A DNA stretch of 64,000 nucleotides from Nitrosopumilus sp. GTDB lineage: Archaea; Thermoproteota; Nitrososphaeria; Nitrososphaerales; Nitrosopumilaceae. The DNA lies in the NCBI RefSeq assembly GCF_025699255.1, contig NZ_JAILWA010000003.1:62001-126000 (forward strand), given 5' to 3'. Positions 24,960-45,612 of the stretch are shown piece by piece. Below the pieces are notes generated by a model. That model was not told the DNA's origin. It saw only the letters and a list, made by a program, of their open reading frames with translations, and did no database searches. The position numbers were made by a program, and so were the translations under genes. The number at the start of each line of letters is the position of its first letter. Position 1 is the first letter of the stretch.

Positions 24960-25238
24960 TTGAATCAAATAACATCTAAAGCTATTACTGGATTCAAATA
25001 CATCTATTTGGTTGCATTTTTTGCATTACTTGCAGGATTTTTTCATCCACTAATTACAAACACAAGTTTTGATGGAGTTATCAGTGGCGTTATCATTTTA
25101 TTTGTAGGTCTTGCAGGTGGAGTTTTGTTATACAGAGCTGCTACATCGGAAAGTAAAAGAGCTATATTTCTTGGAAGTGGATTTGCTTTAATGGCTATTT
25201 CATTATACTATATTTTTCAATTTACTGGCAGGGCTTAG
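24960..25238 (+). CDS. Small membrane protein, three helices (92 aa)
   Basis: The 92-residue product (TTG start) has three predicted transmembrane helices: about 12-30 (FKYIYLVAFFALLAGFF), 40-58 and 66-88 (AIFLGSGFALMAISLYYIF). No catalytic residues are seen. It follows the thermosome by 53 bp and overlaps the convergent glutamine synthetase gene by 4 bp. I do not recognise the family. Confidence 0.6.
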   Translation: MNQITSKAITGFKYIYLVAFFALLAGFFHPLITNTSFDGVISGVIILFVGLAGGVLLYRAATSESKRAIFLGSGFALMAISLYYIFQFTGRA

Positions 25239-26707
25239 ACATCAAAGTATAGATAAAATTCGTGTGGATGTGGTCTAATTGCTATCTCACGCTGATCTCT
25301 TCTTTCCAATTCAATTATTTTATCTATAACATCATTTGTGTAAATTGGATTAAGGAATTTTCTATCACTTTCTAATTCATCTAATGCTTCACCAAGACTT
25401 TTTGGCAAAACACCAATTCCTCTTTTTGCTCTATCAGATTTTGTCATCTTGAAAATATCGTCACGTACTTCATCTCCAGGATCCATCTTTTTCTTGACTC
25501 CATCCATACCAGCTGCTGTAACTGCTGCAAATACAAGATATGGATTTGATGAAGGATCTGGTGCCCTAAATTCTAGTCTTTTTAGGTTTGAATAGTTCTT
25601 TCCTTTGAGATGTTTTGGAACTCTAACTATGGCAGAACGATTTCCTGAACTCCATGCAATATATGCAGGAGCTTCATAACCTGGAACTAATCTATGATAT
25701 GAATTGGTTGTCGGATTACAAATTGCAGATAGAGCTTTTGCATGATTAACTATTCCTCCACAGAAATATCTGCCAAGCTGACTTAACTCAATCTCATCAT
25801 CTGGATCATAAAATGCATTTTCATTTCCTTTCCATAAACTAACATTTACATGCATACCAGAACCTGAATCCATTGCAATTGGTTTGGGCATCATTGTTGC
25901 AACTTTTCCATATTTTTGTGCAACATTTCTAATTACATACTTGTATGATTGTGCCGCATCTGCAGCATTTGTCATATAATCATATTTGATATCAATTTCA
26001 CATTGTCCTGCTGTAGCTACTTCATGATGATGATTATCACATAAGATTCCAAAATTTTTGTTAAGAATATTTACACATTCATTTCTGTACGGTGTAAGGG
26101 TATCTGCTGGAGTACTAGGATAATATCCCTCTTGTAATCCCATTGGATATCCATCACCTGATTGATTCCATGGTGCTTCTTTTGATTCAATTGAGTATGA
26201 TTGACCTTTGTACGGTGTTAGTACATCCCAATGTACCTTATCAAACACAAAGAATTCAACTTCAGGACCCCATGTACTAAAATCAAATCCCTGAGTTTTG
26301 ATATATTCTTCAGCTTTTTGAGATATTCCTCTTGGGTCTCTTGATAATCGTCCTCTGTTTTCTCCCCAATAAACATCACATAGAAGTCTAGCAGTTTTAT
26401 TTTCTGTCATCCAAGGAATTATTGCAAATGTATTTGGATCAGGTTTTAAAAGTAAATCCGAATCATCTATACTGGTAAATCCAATAATTGATGAACCATC
26501 TAATTTTGGTAACCCATCTCTCATTTGTTCTGGAGTAAAGGTGTTTGCTGAAATTGTAGTATGATGAAAATGTCCTGTAAGACCGGTAAACTGAAGATCG
26601 ATAAACTGAATATTTTCGTGTTGAATTCTTGAAAAAACTTCGTCAGGTGAATATGTTACTTGGATAGCTTTACCGTGACTGACTTTATATGGCAATTTAT
26701 TCTTCAA
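25235..26707 (-). CDS. glnA: Glutamine synthetase 1 (canonical active site)
   Basis: This 490-residue type I enzyme makes glutamine from glutamate, ammonia and ATP, the main ammonia-assimilation step. Active-site signatures are intact: WGPEVEFFVFD, HHEVATAGQCEID for metal and glutamate, MPKPIAMDSGSGMHVNVSLW, RLVPGYEAP (ammonium flap Glu), NRSAIVRVP and EFRAPDPSSNPYL. I see no NLYDLP-type adenylylation site, so control is probably by feedback or PII rather than adenylylation. Compare the second enzyme at 41450, where the SGSGMH motif is changed. It is divergent from GINS by 41 bp. Confidence 0.95.
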   Translation of the reverse strand: MKNKLPYKVSHGKAIQVTYSPDEVFSRIQHENIQFIDLQFTGLTGHFHHTTISANTFTPEQMRDGLPKLDGSSIIGFTSIDDSDLLLKPDPNTFAIIPWMTENKTARLLCDVYWGENRGRLSRDPRGISQKAEEYIKTQGFDFSTWGPEVEFFVFDKVHWDVLTPYKGQSYSIESKEAPWNQSGDGYPMGLQEGYYPSTPADTLTPYRNECVNILNKNFGILCDNHHHEVATAGQCEIDIKYDYMTNAADAAQSYKYVIRNVAQKYGKVATMMPKPIAMDSGSGMHVNVSLWKGNENAFYDPDDEIELSQLGRYFCGGIVNHAKALSAICNPTTNSYHRLVPGYEAPAYIAWSSGNRSAIVRVPKHLKGKNYSNLKRLEFRAPDPSSNPYLVFAAVTAAGMDGVKKKMDPGDEVRDDIFKMTKSDRAKRGIGVLPKSLGEALDELESDRKFLNPIYTNDVIDKIIELERRDQREIAIRPHPHEFYLYFDV

Positions 26708-33840: not shown

Positions 33841-34623
33841 TTGACTATTTTTTTTAGTTGGGATCTAAAATCTATTTTTTTGAATCATTCATTGATGTTC
33901 ATCAAACTAGGCATAATTGCTGGTATTGTTATCTTGGGAGGGATGATCTTTTCTAATGAAATTGATAATCTGTTTCCCACAACATCTGCAACTGTATTTG
34001 ATTCATTAAAAAATGATGTAAATAATTTTGGCACAAAAGCCTCGAATTCTGTAGAACAACGAATTGATTCATCAATTGATAAAATTGTAGATAAAACCAC
34101 TGAAACAATATCTGATGAAATTAATGAAGTGGGAGATAAAGTAACTGATGAAATTTCTGATGTAAAAGAATCTTCTCAAAAAACAATCAAAGAAGAAATT
34201 TCAAACTTTAATCCTTTAGAATCAATTCAAAATATTTTAGGTGGTAATTCAAATTCAGATTCTAGTTCATCACCCATTCAAGAATCAACAAATGTTATTT
34301 CTGATAACAACATGTCAATAATTCCTGAAACACTTTCCTTATCAACTACACAACAATCTGATGATAACATACTTCTTCAATATGTTGATACAAGTGGTAA
34401 AACAAAAAGTGTTAATGTAGTAATTAGAACTGCTGATAAAGAAATTTTCTCTGGTACATTCTTTACTTCAATGTTTGATACAAATGTCAATGATGCAAGT
34501 GGAATTCCATATTATGTAGATATGATTGTTGAACATGAAGATTATGGAACTGTAACTTCATCAGTTTATAATCCAGGAGATTCATCTGATACAAAAATTA
34601 ATGGAATATTTTCTCAATCATAA
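33841..34623 (+). CDS. Membrane-anchored protein with amphipathic helical repeats (260 aa)
   Basis: A hydrophobic N-terminal helix (FIKLGIIAGIVILGGMIF) anchors or exports it. A region of short amphipathic repeats in D/E/K/S/T (about 60-125, e.g. TDEISDVKESSQKTIKEEIS) resembles LEA/apolipoprotein-like helical repeats. A Ser/Asn/Gln-rich spacer and a C-terminal beta domain (about 175-255) follow. The start could be TTG 33841 or the better-placed ATG at 33895. The role is unknown; exposure outside the membrane is likely. Overlaps the convergent sir2 end by 6 bp. Confidence 0.65.
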   Translation: MTIFFSWDLKSIFLNHSLMFIKLGIIAGIVILGGMIFSNEIDNLFPTTSATVFDSLKNDVNNFGTKASNSVEQRIDSSIDKIVDKTTETISDEINEVGDKVTDEISDVKESSQKTIKEEISNFNPLESIQNILGGNSNSDSSSSPIQESTNVISDNNMSIIPETLSLSTTQQSDDNILLQYVDTSGKTKSVNVVIRTADKEIFSGTFFTSMFDTNVNDASGIPYYVDMIVEHEDYGTVTSSVYNPGDSSDTKINGIFSQS

Positions 34624-35345
34624 TTTATTTTTAAATATTGAAACCAATTTTGGTATTGATTTTGCGCTAGTATTTCTAATTTTTAAATTCATTACTTCTG
34701 ACATTTCTGTATCTTCTGGATTAATTTCTACTAGTATTGCATTGTTTTGTTTTGCGTAGATTGGAAGCATATTTGCTGGTGATACAACAAGTGATGTACC
34801 TGCAATTATCATTAAATCACATTGGCTTGCAAATCGCATAGCATTTTTCCATACATCTTGAGGTAACGATTCTCCAAACCATACTACATCAGGTCTAAGT
34901 ATATTTCCACATTTACAAAGTGGAGGAATATTTGTAATTTCTGTTAAAATTTCTTCTTTATAGTTACACACACTGAACATTTGATCTTTACAATACTTCC
35001 ATGAAGTTCTAATACCTTTGAACTACCGGCTTTTTGATGTAAGCCATCAATATTTTGTGTTAAAACCACGACTTCAGCATATTTTTCTAATTCAGCAATT
35101 GCTTTATGGCCTAGATTTGGATTGGCCTGAAAAATATTTGTCCTTCTTTCATTATACCACTCCCAAACTAGTTTTGGATTATCATAAAATGCATCTATTG
35201 TGGCTAGCTTCATTGCATCATGATTTCTCCATAATCCGTCTTTTCCTCTAAATGTCGGAATTCCACTTTCTTGTGAAATTCCAGCTCCTGTTACAAATAC
35301 AATTTTTCTAAATTTTTGAATCTGTTCTTCAAATATTTCAAACAT
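34618..35345 (-). pseudogene. cobB: Sir2-family NAD-dependent deacylase, frameshifted
   Basis: Two reading frames together make one sirtuin. The N-terminal frame (34944-35345) has VTGAGISQESGIPTFRG, the catalytic TQNIDGLHQKAGS and LHGSIVKIKCSVC. The other (34618-34980) continues with NYKEEILTEITNIPPLCKCG, RPDVVWFGE and GTSLVVSPAN. The break lies at the AC/GT dinucleotide run at 34966-34973: removing one GT would join CSVC directly to NYKEE and restore all four zinc cysteines. It could be a real slippage mutation, a phase-variable site or a sequencing error. It lies 1 bp downstream of rnz. Confidence 0.85.
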
Positions 35346-38109: not shown

Positions 38110-39855
38110 TTATTCTTCTCCACCTCCACCACGACCAAGATCACCTAGGCCATATTCGTCAATAACCTTGTTTCTATCTTCCACAAGCTTATCAATCTCT
38201 TCTTGTTCACGTTTTTCATCTCCCTGATATACAGTTCTGATTGGCCATGGAATTCTAATATCATATTTTTTAAATTCTTCATACATTATAATTCTCATGT
38301 CAGTTTTAGTTTTGAATTGTGCACCGTAATCTCTAACATAAACCCAAACTGAAAAATCCAATGATGAATCATTAAATTGATTAAATCTTACAACTGGTTG
38401 GTTAATATCAACATGAATATCTTTATCACAACCACAACTTGGTTGATTGTTTTTTAAATATGGACATTGCATTTGTCTTATGAGATGTTTTCCTTTTGCA
38501 TCGATTACTTCATTCATCGCTCGCTTTCCAACTTTTACAAGTATAGCTGAAACTTGTTTAGGATCATTTAGATAAGAAACACCCACATCTACAATAGCAG
38601 GCACCATTTTGTTTCCTTGTGTATAGTTAATTATCTGTGCATTAACTAATTGCCTTGTTGGAATTATTGCAATTGATTCATTCAATGCATCTTTGATGTA
38701 TGTAACTCTAGGCGTAATTCTATGCACATATCCATTATATCCAGTATCAAGCTTTATTCGCTCCCCTTCGACAAATATCTTGTCTTTTCTAATGAGAATA
38801 TATGCAAAATAATTTTGCATTGTTTCTTGTAATGCTAATCCCAAACCAATTGCTAATCCTCCTGTTGCAGTAGCAAGAACAATCAAATCAACTCCCCACC
38901 ATGCAACAACTCCTAAAATTGTTGCAATAAAAATTCCAACAGGAATAATTTGTTTTGCAGATTTTGGAATATTTTCACTTTTCTTTTTTGCATATCCTGG
39001 AGGACGAGAACTTGGGATTATTGGTTCATAACCACTTATTCTCTTCTCTTCTCTCCATATGTCAATTGGAAATATTTCCTCTGGTTTTACACCTGGTTTT
39101 AATTTTCTTCCAGATTGATTATTACCAGTAATACAATCTTGATAATATTTTTCATATTTTGTACGTTCTGAATTTTTCCATTCTTCAAATGGACTGTCAA
39201 CTAATTTTTCATATCCTCCAATTGGATTGCCTCTTGTTGTTCTAAATTGTTCTAATTCTAGCATTCCTTCTTTTGTCTTTAGCTTTTCTCTAAATTCCTC
39301 TTCTTCAATATCTTCTGGAGTGACATTTGGTGGAACCCATTTGTATAATTTATGAAATAGGTTGTCTTCATCATCAATAAATCCTCTCATCTCAAACCAA
39401 GCATCAAAATCTTCTTTTTCTTGTGCAGATTTTTCATGTTTGTTAAGTGCAATTGGAATAAGATGAGAAACTGTATATCCAATTACTAAAATATTGAACG
39501 TGTTGAGGATCTTGGCAAATATTTCTTGAGGTGATACATTCTCACCATTAGCAACTGATAGCTGATCATCTAACAAAAGCCCAGTTTGTATGTGCACATT
39601 AATTACTGTAATGAATATAATTGCAAAAACTGGCAAAACTGCTCTTCGTAAAAATCTTGCAAAATGTGGTTTTTTATAATAAAATTTTTGTGAAGTCACC
39701 CATGATGAAAATTTTCTATAAACTAGAGTAATTCCAATTATGCCTGCTATCATAATAAAAAATGCAATTTGAAGTGTCTCTGATGATGCTAAAAGATGCC
39801 CAACAGTTTCAAATTCACCTGCAGAAATTTGTGATAAATCCTCTTCAGCCATCAA
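38110..39855 (-). CDS. MscS-family mechanosensitive channel with large cytoplasmic insert
   Basis: This 581-residue channel opens under membrane tension to release solutes on osmotic downshock. Early helices lie near 28-50, 68-90 and 110-135. An unusually long hydrophilic insert (about 140-300) separates them from the pore helix region (VVAWWGVDLIVLATATGG then AIGLGLALQETMQNYFAYIL, about 318-355). The beta domain and C-terminal cage follow. A Cys cluster (CPYLKNNQPSCGC) near residue 462 is unusual and might bind metal. It is divergent from an aminomutase gene by 104 bp. Confidence 0.85.
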   Translation of the reverse strand: MMAEEDLSQISAGEFETVGHLLASSETLQIAFFIMIAGIIGITLVYRKFSSWVTSQKFYYKKPHFARFLRRAVLPVFAIIFITVINVHIQTGLLLDDQLSVANGENVSPQEIFAKILNTFNILVIGYTVSHLIPIALNKHEKSAQEKEDFDAWFEMRGFIDDEDNLFHKLYKWVPPNVTPEDIEEEEFREKLKTKEGMLELEQFRTTRGNPIGGYEKLVDSPFEEWKNSERTKYEKYYQDCITGNNQSGRKLKPGVKPEEIFPIDIWREEKRISGYEPIIPSSRPPGYAKKKSENIPKSAKQIIPVGIFIATILGVVAWWGVDLIVLATATGGLAIGLGLALQETMQNYFAYILIRKDKIFVEGERIKLDTGYNGYVHRITPRVTYIKDALNESIAIIPTRQLVNAQIINYTQGNKMVPAIVDVGVSYLNDPKQVSAILVKVGKRAMNEVIDAKGKHLIRQMQCPYLKNNQPSCGCDKDIHVDINQPVVRFNQFNDSSLDFSVWVYVRDYGAQFKTKTDMRIIMYEEFKKYDIRIPWPIRTVYQGDEKREQEEIDKLVEDRNKVIDEYGLGDLGRGGGGEE

Positions 39856-39959
39856 TACTCACTATCTTAACCAAACACATGTTCTAGAATACAAAGGTTA
39901 ACCAATATTACCATTATTTTTTGAAATTATGAGGAAATTATTTTTAAACTAAAAATTCC
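39856..39959. promoter_or_regulatory. Divergent promoter region MscS / aminomutase
   Basis: A 104-bp spacer holding GGTTAACC (39896-39903) and a TTAACC copy near 39866, together a TTAACC-N-GGTTAA inverted pair. A TATA-like tatttttaaact lies at 39939-39950, rather close to the ATG at 39960, so the downstream ATG at 40011 could be the true start of the plus-strand gene. The operator call is speculative. Confidence 0.4.
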
Positions 39960-41375
39960 ATGCCTAGGAACTCTGTAACTTTTATCAAGGGTAAGAGTAC
40001 TATTTACAAAATGACCTATCAAGAATCAGCTTGGGATGATTCACCTTCACTCAAATCTTATACTTTATCAAACTTCAGAACTCTTCCTCAAATCCAAAAA
40101 TTAAGCGAAGAAACTCAATTTGAAATGGAAGTTGTAGGGAACGTTTTGCCATTTAAAGCAAATAATTATGTTGTTGAACAACTAATTGACTGGAATAATA
40201 TCCCAAACGATCCAATCTTTGTATTGACTTTTCCTCAAAAAGGTATGCTTAAACCAGAACATTATGCAAAAATGGAGAGTGCATTAAAAAATAATCTTGA
40301 TAAAAAAGAAATTACATCTATTGCAAATGAAATTCGTTTACAATTAAATCCACATCCTGCAGGTCAAATGGAACTAAATGTTCCAACGTTAAAAGATGGA
40401 ACTAAACTATATGGAATGCAACACAAATACAAAGAAACATGTCTCTTTTTCCCTAGTCAAAGTCAAACATGTCATGCATATTGTAGTTTTTGTTTTAGAT
40501 GGCCACAATTTGTTGGTATGGATGAAATGAAGTTTGCAATGCAAGAAGGAGAACAACTTGTTCAATATGTTTCTGAACATCCAGAAATAAGTGATGTCTT
40601 ATTTACTGGTGGTGATCCAATGATTATGAAAGCAAAAATTTTCTCAAAATATGTTGATGCTTTAATTAACGCCAAACTTCCTAACCTTAAAACAATTAGA
40701 ATTGGAACAAAAGCTCTTGCTTATTGGCCTTACAAATTTTTAACTGATTCAGATTCTCAAGAAATGTTAGATGTTTTCAAAAAAATTACAGACAATGGAT
40801 TACATCTTGCATTTATGGCACATTTTAACCATCTAAATGAACTATCAACAGATGCTGTAAAAAATGCAATTAAGGAAGTCAGAAAAACAGGAGCACAAAT
40901 TCGAACTCAATCTCCATTATTAGCACATATCAATGATGATGCAGAAATGTGGGCAAAAATGTGGACTAAACAGGTTCAGCTTGGTTGTATTCCATATTAC
41001 ATGTTTGTTGTAAGAGATACTGGTGCACAACACTATTTTGGAATTCCACTAGTCAAAGCTTATGAAATTTTTAGAAAAGCATATTCTTCAGTTAGTGGAT
41101 TAGCCAGAACAGTTCGTGGTCCTAGTATGTCTGCAACTCCAGGAAAAGTCCACGTAATTGGAACTGCAAATCTCAATGATCAAAAAGTAATTGTTTTGAG
41201 ATTTTTACAAGGTAGAAATCCTGATTGGGTTCAAGTTCCATTCTTTGCAAAATATGATGAAAATGCAATTTGGTTAGATGATCTAAAACCTGCACTTACT
41301 GACAAATTCTTCTTTGATGAAGAGATGAAAAATTTCAAAGCCAAAAATCCAATTGAAGATTATCCAGAATCTTAG
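39960..41375 (+). CDS. KamA-family radical SAM aminomutase
   Basis: A 471-residue protein related to lysine and glutamate 2,3-aminomutases, which move an amino group from C2 to C3 using SAM, a 4Fe-4S cluster and PLP. The cluster motif is QTCHAYCSFCFRW (C-x3-C-x2-C) near residue 165. LFTGGDPMIM, IRIGTKALAYWP and HFNHLNELS are KamA-type. The candidate PLP lysine is in SATPGKVHVIG near residue 400. The lysine-specific aspartate before it seems to be replaced by Ser. Substrate is unknown. It is followed 74 bp later by the variant glutamine synthetase. Confidence 0.8.
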   Translation: MPRNSVTFIKGKSTIYKMTYQESAWDDSPSLKSYTLSNFRTLPQIQKLSEETQFEMEVVGNVLPFKANNYVVEQLIDWNNIPNDPIFVLTFPQKGMLKPEHYAKMESALKNNLDKKEITSIANEIRLQLNPHPAGQMELNVPTLKDGTKLYGMQHKYKETCLFFPSQSQTCHAYCSFCFRWPQFVGMDEMKFAMQEGEQLVQYVSEHPEISDVLFTGGDPMIMKAKIFSKYVDALINAKLPNLKTIRIGTKALAYWPYKFLTDSDSQEMLDVFKKITDNGLHLAFMAHFNHLNELSTDAVKNAIKEVRKTGAQIRTQSPLLAHINDDAEMWAKMWTKQVQLGCIPYYMFVVRDTGAQHYFGIPLVKAYEIFRKAYSSVSGLARTVRGPSMSATPGKVHVIGTANLNDQKVIVLRFLQGRNPDWVQVPFFAKYDENAIWLDDLKPALTDKFFFDEEMKNFKAKNPIEDYPES

Positions 41376-41449
41376 AATTAACCTGACTAACTTGACAATT
41401 CTAACTTACAAGATAACATTAGTAAATTAATTAATAAAATATATCAAAA

Positions 41450-42895
41450 TTGAATGCAGATCAAGTTTTACAAACTATTAAAGACGAAAATATTTCCTTC
41501 ATTGATTTTTGGTTTGTAGATATTTTTGGTGAATTACATAATGTAGGAATGCCTAGCTATGCAATTGATAAAAACAGTTTTGTAAATGGCCTTGAAAAAT
41601 TAGATGCTAGCTCAATTGTTGGTTTTAAATCTGTAAATAACTCAGATATGATTTTAATGCCCGATCCAAATTCATTTAAAATTCTTCCAAGTGATTATGA
41701 TCCAAGTAGTAGAAAAAATGCAAGAATTTTTTGTGATCTCTATGATGGAAGTACTGAAAAAGAATCAAGATACAACAGAGATTCTAGAGGTATCGCTCAT
41801 AAAGCATCTGAAAAACTCAAAGAATTTGGATTGACTCATACTAATTGGGGACCTGAAATAGAATTTTTTGTATTTGATTCCATCAATGTTTATCCATCAC
41901 CGTATGCAGCAACTCACTCAGGAGGAGGTTCTGGCTATTCAATTGAATCTAAGGAATCACCTTGGGCTAAAGGTAATGTAAGTACTGCCATCGATCTTAA
42001 AGAGGGATACTATCCATCACAACCAAAAGATACCTTGGAAGGATTTAGAAAAGATGTTTGTGATGATCTTTACAACTATTTTGGAATTAAAATTGAAGCA
42101 GAACATCACGAAGTAGCAACTTCTGGTCAATGTGAAATCAATTTGGTTTATGATGAAATGATTAGTATGGCAGATAATGTAATTGCGGTAAAAAATTTAG
42201 TAAAAGTTAAAGCTAAACGAAAAAACAAGGTAGCAACTTTTATGCCAAAACCAATTTTTGGTGATAATGCTTCTGCCATGCACACTCATCAAAGTCTATG
42301 GAATGGAAATTCCAATGTAATGTATGATCAAGACGATGATGTAGCACAAATGAGTCAAACTGGTAGATATTATGTTGGTGGAATTCTAAGTCATGCATCA
42401 GCTTTATGTGCCATATCTAATCCAACAACAAATTCATACAAACGTCTTGTCCCTGGATTTGAGGCTCCAGTCAATGTATGCTGGGGTTTAGCAAATCGCT
42501 CTACAGCAATCAGAGTTCCAATGTATAATCGAAATCAAGAAAAGAGTAAAAGAATTGAATATCGTGTACCTGATCCAACTGCAAATATCTATCTTTTAGA
42601 AGCTGCATTATTACTAGCAGGATTAGACGGAATCAAAAATAAAATAGATCCTGGAGATCCAGTTGAAGAAAATGTATACAAACTTTCTCCAGAAAAAAAA
42701 CGTGAATATAGAATTGGATCCTTACCAGTATCCTTGAAGGGTGCATTGGATTCATTAGCAAGTGATTCTGCTTTCTTGGAGGAAATTTTCACAAAAGACT
42801 TCCTTAAGACATATTCTGAATTAAAATACAAAGAATATACTGCTTTTGCACAAACCCCAACAGCCTGGGAAGTTTCTATGTATGCAGATGCATAA
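41450..42895 (+). CDS. glnA: Glutamine synthetase-like enzyme 2 (variant substrate motif)
   Basis: A 481-residue type I glutamine synthetase paralogue with TTG start. Metal and ATP residues are kept: WGPEIEFFVFD, HHEVATSGQCEIN, RLVPGFEAP, NRSTAIRVP and EYRVPDPTANIYL. In the glutamate-binding loop, the usual N-G-S-G-M-H is N-A-S-A-M-H (MPKPIFGDNASAMHTHQS), with both glycines replaced by alanine, unlike enzyme 1 at 25235. The C-terminus (TAWEVSMYADA) also diverges. It could be a nitrogen-status isoform or use another amino acid. It lies downstream of the KamA-like gene. Confidence 0.85.
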   Translation: MNADQVLQTIKDENISFIDFWFVDIFGELHNVGMPSYAIDKNSFVNGLEKLDASSIVGFKSVNNSDMILMPDPNSFKILPSDYDPSSRKNARIFCDLYDGSTEKESRYNRDSRGIAHKASEKLKEFGLTHTNWGPEIEFFVFDSINVYPSPYAATHSGGGSGYSIESKESPWAKGNVSTAIDLKEGYYPSQPKDTLEGFRKDVCDDLYNYFGIKIEAEHHEVATSGQCEINLVYDEMISMADNVIAVKNLVKVKAKRKNKVATFMPKPIFGDNASAMHTHQSLWNGNSNVMYDQDDDVAQMSQTGRYYVGGILSHASALCAISNPTTNSYKRLVPGFEAPVNVCWGLANRSTAIRVPMYNRNQEKSKRIEYRVPDPTANIYLLEAALLLAGLDGIKNKIDPGDPVEENVYKLSPEKKREYRIGSLPVSLKGALDSLASDSAFLEEIFTKDFLKTYSELKYKEYTAFAQTPTAWEVSMYADA

Positions 42896-42966: not shown

Positions 42967-43626
42967 ATGCAATTAAAATTATTTCTGCTATTTTTGTTAA
43001 TCATACCAGGATTATCAGGTATTGCATATGGTCATACTGTTGATGCTGTTGGTGATTATAGAGTTGAAATTGGTTGGATGAATGAACCTGTTGTTTCAGG
43101 AGAAACAAATGCAATTGAATTCTATGTTAGTCCATTAATTACATGCCCAGAAATTCCTGAACCGATAAAATGTGCCGAATCTCAAGAATTCAAAAACGGA
43201 ATTCCTGATTTGAGAAAAACCATAAAAATGAAATTAATTTACAAAGATGAAAGTATTATCCTTCCTTTATCCCCTGATCATAATATTCCAGGAAAATACT
43301 ATGCATTTGTAAATCCAACAATATCAGGATTTTATCAAGCAAATATTTTAGGAACAATTGTAGATACGCCAATTAGTTTATCCATGCATCCTCCTAAAGT
43401 TGATGAACGCGCATACATTGAATTTCCTGAGCCAGCAGATATTACAGTTCAACAAATGATTGATGGACATACAGCCTTAATTGAAGATGTAGGTGATCTA
43501 AAAGATTCAGTAAGTAATTTAGAAAATGATACACAAGACATGAATCTAGGATATGCTGGACTTGGACTTGGTATAATAGCTATTTCTATTGCAATAGTTG
43601 CTGTAGCAAAATCTAAAAAAAATTAG
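42967..43626 (+). CDS. Exported, membrane-anchored beta-domain protein (219 aa)
   Basis: A signal peptide (1-22, ending SGIAYG) is followed by an extracellular beta domain opening with HTVDAVGDYRVEIGWMNEPV and containing a Cys pair in the TCPEIPEPIKC stretch. A short coiled segment (DVGDLKDSVSNLENDTQ) and a C-terminal helix (GLGLGIIAISIAIVAVA) with a Lys-rich tail complete it. The fold recalls periplasmic copper/heme-protein helper domains, with no clear copper motif. A TATA-like acctttttaaaatc lies about 25 bp upstream. Converges on the permease by 4 bp. Confidence 0.65.
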   Translation: MQLKLFLLFLLIIPGLSGIAYGHTVDAVGDYRVEIGWMNEPVVSGETNAIEFYVSPLITCPEIPEPIKCAESQEFKNGIPDLRKTIKMKLIYKDESIILPLSPDHNIPGKYYAFVNPTISGFYQANILGTIVDTPISLSMHPPKVDERAYIEFPEPADITVQQMIDGHTALIEDVGDLKDSVSNLENDTQDMNLGYAGLGLGIIAISIAIVAVAKSKKN

Positions 43627-44918
43627 TTTGAACTTAGAAAATTATTTTGTTTTTTTAGAATTAAATACAAAATTGAACCAATTCCAATTATAGCTATTCC
43701 TACAAATACAATCTCGATCTCAAACTGTAATGTCATGTAAACTGTAGTTATAAATCCAAACATGGGTAATATAGGAAACTTTCCAACATTAATCGGAACT
43801 TTAAATGGTCTTTCCAAAGTTGGTTCGGTATATCTTAGAACTATTACTGCCAAATTAATTGCAGTAAATGTAATAACTACAGCAAAAACAACAATATTTG
43901 CTATAATTACAATATCTCCAACAAATGTAAATCCTACAGATGTAATTAAAATTCCTACTACTGCAATCCATGGAGTTTTTGTTTTATGATGAATTTTTCC
44001 AAAAAATTGCGGTAAGGAATTACTCTCTGCCATTCCATACAAAATACGTGCACCAGCTACAAGTGTTATCAAAACAGTACTAGCCGTTGCAAATAATGCA
44101 ATTAGTGATATTGTGATATTTCCATTAATGCCTAAAACACTATGAGCTACATCTGCAAGTGGGGCAGATGATACGGATAATTCTTCCCAACTTAATATTC
44201 GAACAACCGATAATGAAACTAGAATGTAAATCACTCCTGTGATTACTATTGATAAAATGATAGCTCTTGGAATTGTCTTTTGAGGCCTTCTTACCTCTTC
44301 TGCTACATTTGCCATGTCTTCAAACCCAATAAATGCAAAGAAAATTAACACAAAAGCGAGAATTATTCCTGTTATTCCATTTGGTGCCTCAAAATAATCA
44401 ACAGATTCAATAGGCTCAATTGTAAATCCTAGAATAATTATCAGTACTAATCCAGCAGCAGTAATAATTGCAAATATGGTATTAGCCCATGCCGATTCTT
44501 TTATTCCAATAAAATTTACTATTGATAAAACCCCAATCAAGAAAATAGCACCAACTGTAATTGGTAAATCAATAAACTGAGTTAGATATCCGCCAAATCC
44601 TAGAGATACTGTTGCAGCAACTATGATTGATGTAATTGCAGTTAACCACCCAATTATAAAACCAAAAAAATGATTCTTAAACGCATTTTTTACAAATGTA
44701 TATTCTGCTGCCGCTTTTGGAAATAACGCAGCAAGTTCTGCATAACTTAATCCTGCAAACACTGCAACAATTGCACCTAACAAAAAAGAAATCCACATAG
44801 AATTTCCTGCAAAACCTGCTGCTTCTCCTATTAAGACGTAGATCCCAGCTCCAAGAATTAATCCAACACCATACATGGTAAGATGAAATAATCCCATGTG
44901 ACGTTTTAATTCAGACAT
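43623..44918 (-). CDS. APC-family amino acid permease
   Basis: A 431-residue carrier with about twelve transmembrane helices. GLILGAGIYVLIGEAAGFAG in helix 1 and the FAFIGFEDMANVAEEVRRPQ loop are hallmarks of amino acid-polyamine-organocation transporters with unwound helix 1 and 6. The substrate is not predictable; amino acid uptake or exchange is likely. It precedes the CCC1-like gene's operon partner with 10 bp spacing on the same strand. Confidence 0.88.
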   Translation of the reverse strand: MSELKRHMGLFHLTMYGVGLILGAGIYVLIGEAAGFAGNSMWISFLLGAIVAVFAGLSYAELAALFPKAAAEYTFVKNAFKNHFFGFIIGWLTAITSIIVAATVSLGFGGYLTQFIDLPITVGAIFLIGVLSIVNFIGIKESAWANTIFAIITAAGLVLIIILGFTIEPIESVDYFEAPNGITGIILAFVLIFFAFIGFEDMANVAEEVRRPQKTIPRAIILSIVITGVIYILVSLSVVRILSWEELSVSSAPLADVAHSVLGINGNITISLIALFATASTVLITLVAGARILYGMAESNSLPQFFGKIHHKTKTPWIAVVGILITSVGFTFVGDIVIIANIVVFAVVITFTAINLAVIVLRYTEPTLERPFKVPINVGKFPILPMFGFITTVYMTLQFEIEIVFVGIAIIGIGSILYLILKKQNNFLSSN

Positions 44919-44928
44919 GATTGCTATC

Positions 44929-45612
44929 CTAAGAAATCAGTAAATTTAATCCATATCCTACAAAATATGCAACAATTGCAGCAATTCCACCAATGATTAA
45001 TGTGTTGATTCCTGAATGCACCATAGATTTTTTAACAATTTTTCCTTTTATCATACCAACAAGGAAAAATGCAGAACATACAGACACAATAGAATATAGA
45101 AAAGCTTCTGAATTCATTTCTATTCCTATTATCATGAAAATCATAAACGGAATTAATGGAATTAATCCAACAAGATTGAAACCTACAAATGTACTTACAG
45201 AGCTATGCATGGGATTTTTTTCATCTTCAATTAATCCTAATTCCTCTTTCATCATTGTGTCTAACCACACTTTTCGTTTTGATGTAATAATCCGTACAAC
45301 ATCTTCCAACAATTCATCCTTGAAACCTTTTTTTCGATAAATTTCTCTAATTTCTTCTCTTTCTTGATCTTCTAAATTATCTATTTCCCACTCTTCTTGT
45401 CTCCTTTTCATTTCAACAAATTCATTTCTTGCTTTTGAAGCTTGATAATTTGCCGCAGCCATAGAAAATCCATCAGCAAATAAATTTGCAAATCCTAGAA
45501 TTAATATGATGACTGCAGGTAACGAGGCGCCCATAACTCCTGCAACTATTGCAAAGGTTGTAACTGCACCATCTATAGAACCATAAATAAAATCATCAAA
45601 ATGTATTTTCAT
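44929..45612 (-). CDS. VIT1/CCC1-family metal transporter
   Basis: A 227-residue membrane protein starting with IHFDDFIYGSIDGAVTTFAI, the conserved first helix of CCC1/VIT1 iron/manganese transporters (Asp and Gly residues lining the path). The cytoplasmic metal-binding helical loop (about 65-125, KRRQEEWEIDNLEDQEREEI and KDELLEDVVRII) is rich in Glu. Three further helices follow. It would move Fe2+ or Mn2+ out of the cytoplasm. It lies upstream of the permease gene. Confidence 0.85.
   Translation of the reverse strand: MKIHFDDFIYGSIDGAVTTFAIVAGVMGASLPAVIILILGFANLFADGFSMAAANYQASKARNEFVEMKRRQEEWEIDNLEDQEREEIREIYRKKGFKDELLEDVVRIITSKRKVWLDTMMKEELGLIEDEKNPMHSSVSTFVGFNLVGLIPLIPFMIFMIIGIEMNSEAFLYSIVSVCSAFFLVGMIKGKIVKKSMVHSGINTLIIGGIAAIVAYFVGYGLNLLIS

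Follow-up and report, generated by a model that had tools for sequence, protein, structure and literature searches.

A predicted glutamate 2,3-aminomutase locus as a candidate source of the osmolyte beta-glutamate in a Nitrosopumilus-type archaeon

Introduction

Could a KamA-type radical SAM enzyme, a second glutamine synthetase and an MscS channel, encoded side by side, form a beta-amino-acid osmolyte locus in marine ammonia-oxidising archaea (AOA), which are among the ocean's most abundant cells? Such a locus had been proposed for a 64,000-nucleotide (nt) stretch of DNA, here called the window. It belongs to a Nitrosopumilus-type genome of ~1.65 Mb. According to the part of Heal et al. (PMC8269262) on which we draw, beta-glutamic acid reaches 730 mM in Nitrosopumilus maritimus SCM1, a relative of the window's organism, where it is the top identified metabolite, and in the ocean there is more of it at depth. 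That part of the paper names no gene for beta-glutamate, and in the literature searched we found no prior assignment of an aminomutase gene as its source.

Results

The ORF list of the window contained all three genes of the original prediction, and their domains and strands agreed with the side-by-side arrangement of a KamA-type enzyme, a second synthetase and a divergent MscS channel. The locus comprises the following features.

38110..39855, minus strand: long (581 aa), divergent MscS-type mechanosensitive channel, candidate osmolyte release channel; MscS beta (PF00924) and C-terminal (PF21082) domains above the Pfam cut-offs
39974..39991, plus strand: conserved element TGTAACYTTTAWCAAGGG, located 20-37 nt before the start of the aminomutase, from an intergenic alignment of relatives
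40011..41375 (ORF opens at 39960), plus strand: KamA-superfamily radical SAM/PLP aminomutase, predicted glutamate 2,3-aminomutase; CxxxCxxC, PLP lysine, pocket residues
41450..42895, plus strand: second type I glutamine synthetase with DNASAMH loop and TTG start, candidate beta-glutamine synthetase; TIGR00653, 520 bits

The aminomutase probably starts at ATG 40011 (MTYQES...) and not at 39960, because a stop codon shortly before this methionine closes the reading frame in N. maritimus as well as in numerous relatives, and because the genes of relatives begin at the same site. The only match of TGTAACYTTTAWCAAGGG in the window is the one listed; it is a possible regulatory or leader element. 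The window's genome contains one KamA-family gene and two glutamine synthetase genes, both of the latter inside the window. Just downstream of the locus (43623-45612, minus strand) lie genes for an amino-acid permease (APC) and for a VIT-type iron/manganese transporter, which some of the relatives retain. Elsewhere in the window, a Sir2-like deacetylase gene (34618-35345, minus strand) is seemingly split into the overlapping ORFs 34944-35345 and 34618-34980, as though through a frameshift or a sequencing error.

Judged by its sequence, the aminomutase is a member of the PLP/radical-SAM KamA superfamily that lies below every curated subfamily cut-off. It has the CxxxCxxC cluster motif and a PLP lysine aligned with K337 of lysine 2,3-aminomutase (LAM). 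Its scores were 134.6 bits against TIGR00238 (KamA family; cut-off 199.2), 116 bits against the lysine 2,3-aminomutase model (cut-off 525) and 92.4 bits against TIGR04368 (glutamate 2,3-aminomutase; cut-off 650). Since the bacterial relatives also reach only 118-148 bits with TIGR00238, the whole subfamily falls below the curated cut-off of that model. The sole solved relative by sequence is the lysine 2,3-aminomutase 2a5h, which was also the best PDB match of an AlphaFold2 model made with 26 archaeal relatives. This model was weak (pLDDT 58), and we therefore do not interpret the pocket in structural terms. Close relatives of the aminomutase in the sample of the order all came from within the archaeal family.

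The substrate positions were read from an alignment with LAM 2a5h as the reference, using the numbering of the ORF from 39960. The cluster cysteines C171, C175 and C178, R180 (LAM R134) and the PLP lysine K396 (LAM K337) are kept, and the cysteines, K396 and the LAM R134 equivalent are invariant in the archaeal and bacterial relatives. Both lysine-binding aspartates are absent: Arg352 stands in place of LAM D293 and Ser389 in place of LAM D330, with a spacing of 37 residues, as in LAM. In the LAM structure, D293 binds the side chain of the lysine substrate. Arg352 was invariant in 44/44 archaeal and 8/8 bacterial relatives (the latter at 41-49% identity), and Ser389 was present in 43 of the 44 archaeal ones, with Ser or Val in the bacterial ones. 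The serine before the PLP lysine had already been seen in the original prediction, from which it was argued that lysine is not an obvious substrate; both points held, the second also through Arg352, a change that had been missed.

In glutamate 2,3-aminomutases, the Asp pair of LAM is replaced by Lys and Asn, a change tied to glutamate binding according to SFLD (PMC3965090). The Arg/Ser pair has a charge pattern similar to that of the Lys/Asn pair of TIGR04368-type enzymes, although the residues differ. We infer that a substrate carrying a distal carboxylate would require just such an acidic-to-basic swap. The pocket residues thus favour glutamate over lysine. Because the scores are far below the curated cut-offs, the substrate call rests on these two positions together with the gene context and the metabolomics.

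The second glutamine synthetase scored as a type I GlnA (520 bits vs a TIGR00653 cut-off of 429), and the catalytic, metal and substrate residues E129, E131, E212, E220, H269, E327, R321, R339, R344, E357 and R359 are intact. Its NASAMH loop had been read correctly, and DNASAMH was invariant in 60 of 60 orthologues, out to ~60% identity. Outgroup loops were DNGSGMH or DNASGMH, the latter in other members of the order. Because the first Ala occurs elsewhere, only the second (G267A) is clade-specific among the sequences checked. The idea that NGSGMH is the normal form holds in general, but not for the other synthetase of this genome, which reads DSGSGMH, nor for the DNASGMH sequences. This housekeeping-type enzyme (25235-26707, minus strand; DSGSGMHVN) carries Ser where N264 is usual and Asn in place of H271. 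We rejected the loop as proof of beta-glutamate specificity, the first Ala being found elsewhere and the second having no known meaning. In a phylogenetic tree, the second synthetases grouped in one long-stemmed clade (100/100), separate from the housekeeping enzyme. Since Methanohalophilus portucalensis makes beta-glutamine by a glutamine synthetase (PMC1224877), in agreement with what the original prediction says of some methanogens, beta-glutamine synthesis is a reasonable function for the enzyme, and we give it an even chance.

Synteny across relatives, a check proposed with the original prediction, was borne out by genome loci with enough flanking sequence: a divergent MscS gene lay beside the aminomutase gene at 74 of 75 loci, and the second synthetase gene was directly downstream at 55 of 74. 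The same neighbours, with an aminomutase of 87% identity, were present in the genome that we take to be N. maritimus SCM1. Among 250 genomes of the family, 169 carried the aminomutase and 117 the synthetase clade. The aminomutase was found in 114 of these 117 synthetase-bearing genomes, and the three without it are all drafts. The Fisher value of this association (4e-24; 250 family genomes) is inflated by shared ancestry, and the argument therefore rests on unlinked co-occurrence, as in genomes where the synthetase gene is relocated yet present (e.g., G120), and on a second channel type. The second synthetase was missing from 55 of the 169 aminomutase-bearing genomes, including Nitrosopelagicus-type ones, one of them presumably N. 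brevis. Amidation would thus be optional.

Within the order sample, every genome with the long form of MscS also bore the aminomutase. The C-terminal domain of the window's channel contains a large soluble insertion as well as a Cys-rich segment, CPYLKNNQPSCGC. In genus g2 the long form is missing. At the four loci of this genus where an MscS gene was found, a DUF432 gene comes after the aminomutase gene, together with a gene for a different, short MscS (~280 residues); a lone AsnC-type ligand-binding domain also follows in two of the four, and the synthetase is present in some. The stretch with the DUF432, short MscS and AsnC-type genes is at 6889-8758 in L139 and at 7048-8935 in L147. The AsnC domain might sense the aminomutase product. 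A second channel architecture at the aminomutase argues for a link between its product and osmotic release, and whether the MscS channel releases these solutes appears evenly balanced to us. Genus g2, which we assume to come perhaps from low-salt habitats, also carries the aminomutase, and this counts against an osmolyte. Overall, the proposal of a beta-amino-acid osmolyte locus was strengthened by the conserved gene order, by the synthetase that tracks the aminomutase, by the two MscS architectures and by the abundance of beta-glutamate in a relative.

Full-length bacterial relatives with 44-51% identity were found in Mycetohabitans, Burkholderia and actinomycetes and are mostly annotated as lysine 2,3-aminomutase. 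The homologue of Streptomyces NBC_00334 is encoded between polyketide synthase genes, beside genes for an iminopeptidase, a class I/II PLP enzyme and an AMP-binding ligase. This gene set matches the cassette for the 3-aminobutyrate starter of the macrolactam-type compound incednine. The homologue in such a matching cassette is 45% identical to the window's enzyme over nearly the full length and has R352, R386 and K396 in common with it. For incednine, feeding experiments, the beta-glutamate decarboxylase IdnL3 and an idnL4 knockout indicate that beta-glutamate comes from the radical SAM enzyme IdnL4, the activity of which is so far unseen in vitro (PMC11284099, PMC10662134). Other actinomycete relatives (L133, L135) are located beside CoA-ester lyase/MaoC genes in Amycolatopsis or beside a SidA/ATP-grasp cluster in Rhodococcus, and these neighbours suggest other uses of the same beta-amino acid.

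In methanogens, an aminomutase was excluded by NMR as the source of beta-glutamate, and a route by hydroxyglutaryl-CoA dehydration and glutaconyl-CoA was proposed (PMC1224877). The PF06050 dehydratase family of the methanogen route was absent in four of the archaea under study and was present in the Methanocaldococcus jannaschii control.

Discussion

Taken together, the sequence data are best explained by a predicted glutamate 2,3-aminomutase with beta-glutamate as an osmolyte, and we consider this explanation probable. The 40011 gene product would be the aminomutase, and its Arg352 would hold the distal carboxylate, a role played by Lys in the clostridial glutamate 2,3-aminomutase. Beta-glutamate would then build up as an anionic osmolyte. 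In lineages with the 41450 synthetase, part of it may be converted with ATP and ammonia into neutral beta-glutamine, and upon hypo-osmotic shock the divergent MscS channel would vent beta-glutamate and beta-glutamine.

The closest competitor keeps the aminomutase as the source of beta-glutamate and makes the second synthetase an ordinary L-glutamine synthetase isoform, e.g., for conditions of high ammonia or salt, which is only co-regulated. To this we assign somewhat less than an even chance. It fits the intact canonical glutamate and metal residues, the score as an ordinary GlnA and the many aminomutase-bearing genomes without the enzyme, the N. brevis type included. However, a near-universal other synthetase is already there, the second one forms a separate, long-stemmed clade with an invariant loop change, and it hardly ever appears in a genome that lacks the aminomutase, even where the genes are unlinked.

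Doubts about the aminomutase itself weigh less. It is unlikely that the enzyme acts on another acidic substrate (e.g., alpha-aminoadipate) or makes a beta-amino acid without an osmotic function while beta-glutamate comes from elsewhere. Arg352 would suit any distal carboxylate, and the bacterial relatives are found in several kinds of biosynthetic clusters, but the 730 mM beta-glutamate of N. maritimus needs a source, the dehydratase family of the methanogen route is absent, and two types of MscS are linked to the aminomutase gene. Even less credible, in our estimate, is an enzyme that converts lysine to beta-lysine and on to N-acetyl-beta-lysine, as in methanogens. The annotation of the bacterial relatives and the nearest solved structure point in this direction. 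Against it stand the loss of both lysine-binding aspartates, one of them now a basic Arg, the score far below the cut-off of the lysine model and the gene neighbourhood, since no ablB-kind acetyltransferase was recognised among the genes adjoining the aminomutase.

A predicted glutamate 2,3-aminomutase with beta-glutamate as the osmolyte thus stays our preferred explanation. More tentatively, and with a probability that we place below one half, a distinct radical aminomutase subfamily of aerobes, with Arg for Asp293, may make beta-glutamate as the main osmolyte of marine AOA, in concert with a beta-glutamine synthetase dedicated to this task and with MscS channels as alternative exporters. Such a route would differ from that of methanogens and would represent a large source of beta-glutamate in the deep ocean to which no gene had been assigned before. 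If this is true, two unrelated chemistries lead to one and the same unusual solute in archaea. A named candidate gene makes the beta-glutamate route directly testable and lets metagenomes be scanned for beta-glutamate production. In addition, the label lysine 2,3-aminomutase is put in doubt for the whole subfamily.

Several known systems can be compared with this locus. Methanogens use AblA to make beta-lysine as an osmolyte. With lysine 2,3-aminomutase (2a5h, AblA), the window's enzyme shares the family, the Fe-S motif, the PLP lysine and the R134 equivalent, whereas Arg and Ser occupy the positions of D293 and D330. With the clostridial glutamate 2,3-aminomutase (TIGR04368), it has in common the KamA family, the radical SAM cysteines, the PLP lysine and the change of the Asp pair to a basic and a polar residue. 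However, these residues are Lys/Asn there and Arg/Ser here, and the score of 92 vs 650 bits sets the two apart as different subfamilies. The likeness to the IdnL4-type aminomutases of macrolactam clusters (incednine) lies in the homologue from a matching PKS starter cassette, through which our enzyme was compared with this type; in contrast to the bulk solute proposed here, the product there is an antibiotic precursor. The beta-glutamate/beta-glutamine system of methanogens has the same solutes, and the M. portucalensis synthetase makes beta-glutamine (PMC1224877), but an aminomutase was excluded there, and the dehydratase family of its glutaconyl-CoA route is absent here. The ectoine system of N. 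maritimus is a compatible-solute pathway within the same group, although the aminomutase locus is far more widespread. Among 13 genomes tested, the ectoine enzyme EctB was detected in just two (SCM1 and one other) and not in that of the window, so that the aminomutase locus is the more general osmolyte candidate.
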